Source: Synechococcus sp. HJ21-Hayes (GTDB lineage Bacteria > Cyanobacteriota > Cyanobacteriia > PCC-6307 > Cyanobiaceae). From it: 64,000 nt of DNA. The stretch spans positions 62,001 through 126,000 of the forward strand of contig NZ_JAGQBW010000003.1 of NCBI RefSeq assembly GCF_024345835.1, written 5' to 3'. This document shows, piece by piece, positions 21,347 to 22,957 of the stretch. The notes under the pieces were generated by a model. That model saw only the letters and a program-made list of their open reading frames with translations. It was not told the origin of the DNA and ran no database searches. Within the stretch, counting starts at the first letter, position 1; each line of letters begins with the position of its first letter. The position numbers and the translations under genes are program-made.

Positions 21347-22762
21347 TTGACTGCACCTCTGAGCCCCTCTCCTGCGGCACCCCAACCGTTCACGGTGTCG
21401 GCACCGCTGCCCGCCATGGCCCTGCGGCGGTTGTGGCCGCTGGCGCTGCCGCTCGTGGGCGGTTGGCTGGTGCTGGACAGCCTGGATATCCAGTTGTCGT
21501 CGTTGGTGAGCCTTGGGGTGGCGGCCGGTGGACTGTGGTTGCTGCGGGGGCGTCGACGGCCCAGCGCTCAACGCTGGCCCCGCACCGCTGCGGGTTGGCT
21601 CGAGCGCTGCGACACCGTGTTAGCGGCCTTTGAACGGCTGGAGGGAGTGGAGGCCTGCGCCGACCAGCAGAGTGTCCGGCAGCAGGCCCTAGCGGTGCTG
21701 CGGGCGCGGCAGCAGCGCGGGTATCTGGATGTCGCGGTGGTGGGTTCTCAGCTCCCCGATCCCAGTCTTGGTACGGCCCTGGCTGAAGCCTGCCGCGCGG
21801 CTCTGCCATTGAGGTTGCACTGGACCCACCCGCTTTCGGCCTATAGCCCGGACTGGCAGTGGCCCGAGTTCTTCCGCCACTGCGACCATCTTTTCTATTG
21901 CCTCGATTTGCCCCTGCGGGCCTCCGATCTGCGCTGGTTGGAGGCCCTGCCCCAGGGGCAGCCTGTTTGGCTGTTGGTGCAGCGCACTGCCTGCGCTAAC
22001 TGGTCGGCTCGTGAGCGGGAATTGAACGGGCAGCTGCCCGAGCAGCTGCGGGACCGCTGGCTGGCCTGGAGCTCCGCAGAGCCTGGGGCTTTGGCCCAGG
22101 CTCTGGCCCCGCTGGCCCAGAGCCTGGCGGGTTCCGGCCAGCAACAGCTGGAGCACACCCAGCGGCGCTGCCTCGAACAGTTGCATGGTGTCTGGCAGCT
22201 TGAGCTGGAAGGGCTGCGGCGCCAGCGCTGCCAGGGGCTACTCCAGCGCACCCAGTGGACCGTGGCGGCAGGGGTGGTGATGGCCCCTCTGCCCAGCCTG
22301 GATTTGCTGGTGTTGGCCGCAGCCAATGGCTTGATGCTTCAGGAGATGGCCCGCCTCTGGGAGTGTTCCTGGACCCTGGAGCAGCTGCAGGCCGCCGCCG
22401 CTGAGCTGGCCAAGGCGGCCCTGACCCTGGGGGTGGTGGAGTGGAGCTCCCAGGCCCTGGCCTCCCTGGTGAGGCTCCATGGCGCTACCTGGCTGGTGGG
22501 CAGTGCCCTGCAGGCCCTCAGTGCCGCCTATCTCACCCGGGTGGTGGGGCGTGCCATGGCCGACTACCTCGCTCTGGCCTCAGGGGTGCCTGAAGCGGAG
22601 CTTCAGGCACTGCTCCAGCGCCAGGCGCCTCTGCTGGTGGCGCGGGCCGCCGAAGAGGAGAAAGTGAACTGGAGCAGCTTTCTCCAGCAGGGGCAGGAGT
22701 GGTTGCGCCAGCAGGGCAGCGGCGGCTCCGCTGGGATGGTGCCCTCCTTGCCAGCCGCGTGA
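21347..22762 (+). CDS. DUF697-type membrane protein with degenerate GTPase-like region
   Basis: A 471-residue protein starting at TTG (TAPLSPSPAAP). Two hydrophobic segments lie at about 27-55. The central region (about 95-265) sits where other members have a small GTPase domain, but no P-loop GxxxxGK[ST] is visible. A hydrophobic AAGVVMAPLPSLDLLVLAA segment follows, typical of DUF697. The C-terminus is helical. DUF697 proteins are linked to membranes and GTPases, with no firm function. It ends 195 bp before psbA. Confidence 0.65.
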   Translation: MTAPLSPSPAAPQPFTVSAPLPAMALRRLWPLALPLVGGWLVLDSLDIQLSSLVSLGVAAGGLWLLRGRRRPSAQRWPRTAAGWLERCDTVLAAFERLEGVEACADQQSVRQQALAVLRARQQRGYLDVAVVGSQLPDPSLGTALAEACRAALPLRLHWTHPLSAYSPDWQWPEFFRHCDHLFYCLDLPLRASDLRWLEALPQGQPVWLLVQRTACANWSARERELNGQLPEQLRDRWLAWSSAEPGALAQALAPLAQSLAGSGQQQLEHTQRRCLEQLHGVWQLELEGLRRQRCQGLLQRTQWTVAAGVVMAPLPSLDLLVLAAANGLMLQEMARLWECSWTLEQLQAAAAELAKAALTLGVVEWSSQALASLVRLHGATWLVGSALQALSAAYLTRVVGRAMADYLALASGVPEAELQALLQRQAPLLVARAAEEEKVNWSSFLQQGQEWLRQQGSGGSAGMVPSLPAA

Positions 22763-22819: not shown

Positions 22820-22850
22820 TTCATGAAGGTGTCATGAAGTACTTCATGAA
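22820..22850. promoter_or_regulatory. Triple TCATGA palindrome array upstream of psbA
   Basis: Three copies of the palindrome core TCATGA lie at 22821-22826, 22832-22837 and 22844-22849. The outer two are extended to TTCATGAA. Centres are 11 and 12 bases apart, about one helical turn, so they would sit on the same DNA face. An AT-rich AACAATTAT just downstream is a possible -10 region. The array ends about 108 bases before the psbA ATG. Binding of a dimeric regulator is an inference; the protein is unknown. Confidence 0.55.
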
Positions 22851-22957
22851 TAACAATTATCGCTTGCGAACTTAACTTTTCCTCCTGGAATTGTTTGGCT
22901 TGCCTCCGTAGCGTGGCCCTGCCACATCCTGTGGCCACCCTGTACTCATTCGGTTCC

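Follow-up and report, generated by a model that had tools for sequence, protein, structure and literature searches.

We examined a window of 64,000 nucleotides from Synechococcus sp. HJ21-Hayes in which a psbA gene is preceded by three short palindromic boxes (Table 1). All three boxes lie in the 195 bp intergenic region between an upstream reading frame and psbA. The encoded D1 protein carries Q130, which we take to mark the D1:1 isoform, as we take E130 to mark D1:2; this typing rule was applied to the window psbA and to all other loci. A sequence-only reading of this DNA had described TCATGA palindromes with centres 11 and 12 bp apart, two of them extended, and these were recovered at 22821, 22832, and 22844, with boxes 1 and 3 as TTCATGAA and box 2 as GTCATGAA. 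It had also proposed helical phasing on one DNA face. The boxes are indeed phased, but steps of 11 and 12 bp keep them on one face only roughly.

Table 1. Genes, boxes, and predicted promoter elements around the psbA start, in window coordinates
Feature	Sequence or product	Position	Strand	Remark
Upstream reading frame		21347-22762		Borders the intergenic region
Box 1	TTCATGAA	22820-22827	.	Seen in the sequence; kept in relatives
Box 2	GTCATGAA	22831-22838	.	Same form in L106
Box 3	TTCATGAA	22843-22850	.	Zero point for the fixed spacing
Alternative -10-like word	CTTAAC	22871-22876	+	20 nt past box 3; read by eye
Overlapping -10 register	CGTAGC	22907-22912	+	Also possible
Predicted -10	TAGCGT (TAnnnT)	22909-22914	+	Same 58-nt offset in 51/58 arrays
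Predicted transcription start		22919-22922	+	Inferred from the -10
Hairpin	GCCACA-TCC-TGTGGC	22921-22935	+	At the predicted mRNA 5' end
psbA	D1 with Q130, D1:1 type, 358 aa	22958-24034	+

As a single word, TCATGA is no commoner in the window than expected (9 against 11.4), but its tandem arrangement is enriched (2 pair matches against 0.01 expected). The sequence-only reading had not seen the element at other places in the window. For the tandem this is correct, but six of the nine single palindromes do lie elsewhere. Scored against three copies of TTCATGAA, the window triple reaches 23 of 24, and the maximum in 2,000 dinucleotide shuffles of the intergenic region was 18. Some triple of 6-bp palindromes with spacings of 8-15 was present anywhere in the window in 3 of 60 shuffled windows, and for this reason the window alone proves little: by itself it is suggestive of boxes, and conservation decides.

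The tandem TCATGAA-N3-5-TCATGAA was found in 19 of the 25 genomes of the window's genus, and the reversed-pattern control gave 0. psbA comes next in 17 of these. Of the other two, G010 reaches its contig end there, and G001 has the tandem at another place (L117), the psbA of that genome having a weaker array. Across the family, TTCATGAA-N2-5-TTCATGAA occurred in 49 of 300 genomes, spread over 5 of the 59 genera, and the reversed pattern in 3 of 300. Among the 30 loci listed for this pattern, 28 precede psbA, of which the script recognised 26 and reading by eye L154 and L155; L157 and L162 do not. The other 19 genomes added no new locus to the list. The sequence-only reading had been staked on the palindromes not being missing from close relatives, and the array is kept in relatives.

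A profile of 39 columns was built from 42 arrays, all with 11/12 spacing; its searches scored 150 candidates per genome, and weaker targets may be missed. The best match had E ≤ 1.2e-6 in 22 of the 25 genus genomes, with the next unrelated match anywhere at E = 0.036. G004, G021, and G022 had no strong match, and no psbA match spanning residues 1-358 is listed for them. In 24 further chosen genomes, 14 had a match at ≤1e-5, each at psbA; among the other 10, of which seven were examined, matches were weak at psbA (G112, G192), lacking (G120, G172), or inside other frames (G062, G068). The match in G085 lies far from its psbA. Twelve more genomes all had their match at psbA, 10 of them at ≤1.7e-5 and two (G160 and G226) more weakly. 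A psbA frame was confirmed by script in 49 of the 54 profile-match loci checked; the remaining five are a contig end (L365), a locus with psbA on the same contig that the script left unread (L376), and three weak matches with no psbA (L381-L383). Most genomes searched have one strong array site, and it is at psbA D1:1.

These patterns bear on the view that the boxes are chance or hitch-hiking sequence without function. Palindrome triples do arise in shuffled windows, as noted above, and a similar upstream gene adjoins psbA in several relatives (judged by eye), so the region is inherited as a block. However, the boxes are kept across g1, g5, g34, g35, and g48 while the adjoining 52 nt diverge, and there is the one strong site in most genomes searched. 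Conservation already contradicts chance, and we consider this explanation very improbable.

Further targets of the array were sought among 16 weak-match regions and rejected as such; the script places 13 inside a reading frame. The three outside frames are two response-regulator loci (L420 and L421) and one psbD start (L429); L428, one of the 13 in-frame matches, is a psbD start as well. A cyanophage source was likewise set aside: the viral scan returned at least 120 stretches, and a psbA-like frame was present in 1 of the 80 loci listed (L290), 1.1 kb from the tandem. Two arrangements elsewhere are recorded as observations in their own right. In G001 (L117 / L435), a TCATGA tandem with an 11-bp period lies between two genes that we take to encode a histidine kinase and a GDT1-type membrane protein. 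In G009 (L433, about 289-311) and also G017 (L420), TTCAC direct repeats with an 11-bp period stand upstream of what is presumably a histidine kinase paired with a response regulator of the OmpR type, and are possibly an autoregulatory site of that pair.

We next consider which psbA copies carry the array. The source genome has two full psbA copies and two further partial matches at 40% identity. The second full copy, located on C1, encodes E130; in the 170 bases preceding it there is no box, but there is a GTTACGTT word. psbA loci were gathered by protein search with no motif selection, and the motif-fetched loci (L003-L007, L117-L176) were excluded. After duplicate removal, 94 Q130, 62 E130, and 5 unassigned upstream regions were scored. 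Seventeen loci gave no row, of which seven were duplicates and ten unreadable (little upstream DNA or no N-terminal pattern match); no triple in these ten scores above 18.

Among picocyanobacteria, an array at ≥19/24 was present in 36 of 62 Q130 upstream regions and in 0 of 38 E130 regions, whose best score was 17; one of three unassigned rows (L109) also has the array, scoring 22. Three of the 36 (L014, L018, and L208) have 13-bp spacing and one weak box. Outside the picocyanobacteria, the threshold was reached in 1 of 32 Q130 regions (L083) and 0 of 24 E130 regions. A single TTCATGAA occurs in 6 of the 38 E130 regions, and G255 has CAACTTCATGACGTTTTCATGAAGTTGTTATGAA then CTCCATAGTCTT, with just a degenerate box pair in the two E130-type copies read there. 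The array is specific to the D1:1 copy. The earlier idea of a lineage-specific psbA control element is thus kept as to lineage and narrowed as to gene, from psbA generally to the D1:1 copy. The array is missing from 26 of the 62 picocyanobacterial Q130 regions, among them those sampled from genera g30 and g37, so expression of D1:1 is possible in its absence.

Two unusual psbA loci were seen along the way. L207 (G048) encodes E130 with a D1:1-like N-terminus and has one extended box, AACTTCATGAAGTT, upstream; it is a possible isoform hybrid. Upstream of psbA at L210 (G093), a single TTCATGAA is centred in a palindrome of about 40 bp, TAGTGCGCAAGCAAACTTCATGAAGTTTGCTTGCGCACTA.

Of 174 boxes, 121 are exactly TTCATGAA. 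Forty-three of the 58 arrays are spaced 11/12 and the other 15 are spaced 11/11; in g6 a spacing of 13 is seen. Over 37 arrays, mismatches in the 5' and 3' half-sites numbered 10 and 9 in box 1, 18 and 5 in box 2, and 11 and 7 in box 3, for totals of 39 and 21. The 5'-half variation of box 2 is largely TTGATGAA in related strains. Two-fold symmetry is thus largely kept in boxes 1 and 3 and less so in box 2. The outer flanks tend to be mirror images, with AAC before box 1 (23, 21, and 34 of 37) and GTT after box 3 (23, 21, and 26 of 37). This symmetry and the mirrored flanks would fit DNA sites that take one dimer per box, and an OmpR-type factor would also be compatible with them.

The distance from the array to the gene is not constant (93 to 162 nt from box 3 to ATG). 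We turn to the region between them, using 58 distinct arrays, motif-fetched ones included, of 11/12 and 11/11 spacing only, in which TAnnnT was sought at offsets 48-63 past box 3. In 51 of the 58 arrays the hexamer begins at an offset of exactly 58 (one of these also has it at 48), and in one array at 59; the remaining six have no TAnnnT at those offsets and have CATCAT there instead. In genus consensus spacers, with genus labels assigned by hand, the window's genus agrees with g5, g34, and g35 at 14-17 of 52 positions, and at 7-8 of 10 in the hexamer block. Spacers of g5, g34, and g35 are less diverged from one another (20-26 of 52; hexamer block 6-9 of 10). The single sequence of g48 shares 11-25 of 52 positions and just 0-3 of 10 in the block, because its hexamer is shifted by one. 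From this constancy, the +58 hexamer is likely the -10 of the psbA D1:1 promoter, which would put the boxes near -75, -86, and -97. No conserved TTGACA-like word stands at the expected -35 place in the genus consensus spacers.

Two other -10 candidates were discarded. The sequence-only reading had placed a possible -10 in the AT-rich patch beside box 3. The patch is there, but TAACAATTAT is not kept even in L106, whose upstream region is the most similar among the relatives, and AACAATTAT beside box 3 is conserved neither there nor in the other relatives compared. The word CTTAAC, in most rows of the window's genus and absent in other genera, gave way to the +58 hexamer.

The hairpin at the predicted 5' end folds with z = -1.6 for a 39-nt leader. 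Its pair counts in the window's genus show weak covariation, with 86.5% of cells paired; the covariation score was reached by 31 of 500 shuffles and the percentage paired by 190 of 500. In other genera, other possible hairpins were seen by eye at the predicted mRNA 5' end.

The boxes might instead act in RNA, as an element in a long psbA leader or as the terminator hairpin of the upstream gene, for AACTTCATGAAG...CTTCATGAAGTT can pair. In many species the complementarity of box 1 to box 3 extends to as much as 12 bp, and the array begins soon after the stop of the upstream gene, overlapping it in some g5 rows. Seven of the 58 arrays have a run of five Ts that begins no more than 12 nt from box 3, but the other 51, the window included, have no such run. 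Boxes 1 and 3 also do not covary (5 double-change cells observed against 9.1 expected after shuffling), and for want of such compensatory pairing we read them as DNA sites rather than an RNA hairpin. The constant distance, moreover, is to a -10-like word, with a separate hairpin behind it in the window's genus. An RNA role is quite improbable in our judgement.

As DNA sites, the boxes resemble several known systems. Pho-box type sites are direct repeats of the PhoB/OmpR family, with short boxes at about 11 bp. The array shares this repeat of short boxes at roughly 11 bp, whereas its boxes are full palindromes with mirrored outer flanks and its spacing runs from 11 to 13 between lineages. The met boxes of MetJ are sites of a dimeric repressor, compact 8-bp palindromes in tandem with a period of 8. 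The array is similar in its tandem 8-bp palindromes, suited to cooperative dimers, but its period is 11-13, and no MetJ-like regulator was identified. The array is ordinary in kind and new in sequence and target as far as our literature searches reach; these found no description of the element by title or abstract start, and the array is unnamed in the literature searched.

The closest comparison is with the HLR1 sites of RpaB in Synechococcus elongatus PCC 7942 and Synechocystis PCC 6803. According to passages of one source, phosphorylated RpaB activates the low-light D1 gene in these strains from upstream sites and, bound over the start, represses high-light genes (PMC13421787). Both systems have repeated short boxes at a light-controlled psbA promoter, and in the same passages the low-light D1 gene is governed from upstream (PMC13421787). 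The array differs in its box (TTCATGAA rather than KTTACAWW), in having three boxes rather than two, and in that most of the genomes searched have a single strong site. HLR1 half-sites have a 10-bp period, which is not matched by the 11 and 12 bp of the window or the 11/11 or 13 elsewhere. Counted from the predicted start, the array would stand at about -75 to -97, compared with -45 to -66 for HLR1 activation and -38 to +23 for repression. As the sequence-only reading stated, the element at psbA is distinct from HLR1: the consensus KTTACAWW-N2-KTTACAWW has no match in the window at up to 3 mismatches, and its best score at the psbA promoter, 11 of 16, is reached by 20 of 40 mononucleotide shuffles.

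Deviant boxes lean towards HLR1 to some degree. Among 38 substitutions in 21 distinct box types, 18 move towards the half-site WWTGTAAM, as do 3 of the 24 possible single changes, and 13 move towards the opposite orientation KTTACAWW; the lean is only partly directional. Tolerance of change at the central bases could also produce it, and the rows are related to one another. HLR1-like words are also found at the D1:2 genes. The pattern GCnnnnTk-nn-KTTACrnT, drawn up after inspecting the E130 rows, occurs in 20 of 38 E130 and 2 of 62 Q130 upstream regions. In these 20 (L002 and others), the word resembles GCAAnnTTCCKTTACATT, with one full and one degenerate HLR1 half-site, and overlaps a possible TACATT -10.

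Because the weak matches L428 and L429 sit at psbD starts, we searched for a box there. In 51 of 111 genomes, from 12 of 31 genera, a lone TTCATGAA stands 2-12 nt ahead of ATGACNATNGC, one per genome; the reversed control gave 0. In 28 of the 51, read in DNA, the start codon opens MTIA, as in psbD, and the fuller frames behind the box (e.g. L460 and L477) are ones we take to be psbD. In G003, the sole genome with both psbD copies read, the box is on the single psbD and not on the copy before a psbC-like frame. These boxes sit within TGTAAMGCTTCATGAAGC-like leaders, for example at G000:C35:167904-167931, outside the window. A box-free search for TGTAA 10-38 nt before the start hit 80 of 111 genomes, some at unrelated places (reversed control, 9 of 111). 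In psbD leaders of related genomes, TTCGTGAA, TTCGTAAA, ATCATGAA, and others replace TTCATGAA, and TGTAAM-N2-TTCGTAAA resembles HLR1 read on the other strand.

This resemblance is the main reason for keeping RpaB as a candidate. TTCATGAA may be a diverged RpaB half-site, in which case the array would be an atypical target of RpaB and would need no new regulator; this version of our best explanation names the protein, and we entertain it tentatively. The psbD leaders offer TGTAAM-N2-TTCRTRAA with HLR1 geometry, in which the box varies among TTCATGAA, TTCGTGAA, and TTCGTAAA; the array itself has variants such as TTTGTAAA and TTAGTAAA; and RpaB activates low-light D1 in model strains, by the account in those passages (PMC13421787). 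The array spacing of 11/12 rather than the 10-bp HLR1 period, however, counts against RpaB, as do the failure of HLR1 to match in the window or to exceed shuffles at the psbA promoter and the near-symmetric, non-directional form of boxes 1 and 3. The likeliest binder would be an OmpR/PhoB-type response regulator, RpaB or a relative, an assignment in which our confidence is low, and an undescribed dimeric regulator is the alternative. Counts of PF00486 (Pfam) in 32 chosen genomes, from 4 to 16, singled out no one regulator.

We infer a transcription start, regulator binding, activation, and a light signal at the array, and we think it probable, with moderate confidence, that the array is the operator of D1:1-specific low-light psbA expression in picocyanobacteria, bound by an OmpR-type or similar regulator. 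One regulator would bind all three boxes next to one another, at roughly -97, -86, and -75. The array would act in fixed register with a weak -10 (TAnnnT) and no recognisable -35, the bound regulator recruiting RNA polymerase. D1:1 would be made in low or moderate light and would drop in strong light as the regulator comes off the DNA. The D1:2 copies have no array, and many have an HLR1-like word in its stead.

Activators typically stand at an exact distance from the -10, and this bears on the opposite arrangement, in which the array would be a repressor site. A factor that is active in strong light would then bind the boxes and switch off D1:1, leaving D1:2 to replace it. According to passages of PMC3441193 on marine Synechococcus WH7803, the D1:1 transcript is under repression at noon and highest at the light-dark transition, the D1:2 genes behave oppositely, and the psbD pool follows light. 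The noon fall of D1:1 (PMC3441193) would be equally explained by repression, and the single psbD box, near or downstream of a start predicted by eye, has a repressor-like position. The psbA boxes, however, lie 58 nt upstream of the predicted -10, far from simple-blocking positions, and their activator-typical exact spacing goes with a predicted promoter that has no conserved -35 word. Repression at the array therefore seems unlikely to us. The WH7803 switch concerns the same kind of gene pair, with opposite daily expression of the isoform genes; no cis element appears in those passages, and the word "promoter" is absent from the main text (PMC3441193). For CC9605, start sites are in the supplementary tables of PMC5069720, whose main text does not name psbA.

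A factor active in low light, activating at the array and repressing at the psbD leader, would fit all three of the patterns described above. By extension, TTCATGAA may mark an undescribed photosystem II switch in picocyanobacteria, in which the upstream triple box turns on psbA D1:1 and the single box in the psbD leader holds psbD down in low light through one light- or redox-sensitive regulator; we put this forward as a doubtful but possible reading. In both marine and freshwater picocyanobacteria, D1 isoforms are exchanged as the light regime shifts. If the reading is true, the TTCATGAA switch sets which D1 isoform is made and how much D2. With its fixed promoter spacing, the D1:1-only array can be used to fish out its regulator, and from the genera that have or lack it one can predict which strains have the proposed low-light control of D1:1 in common.
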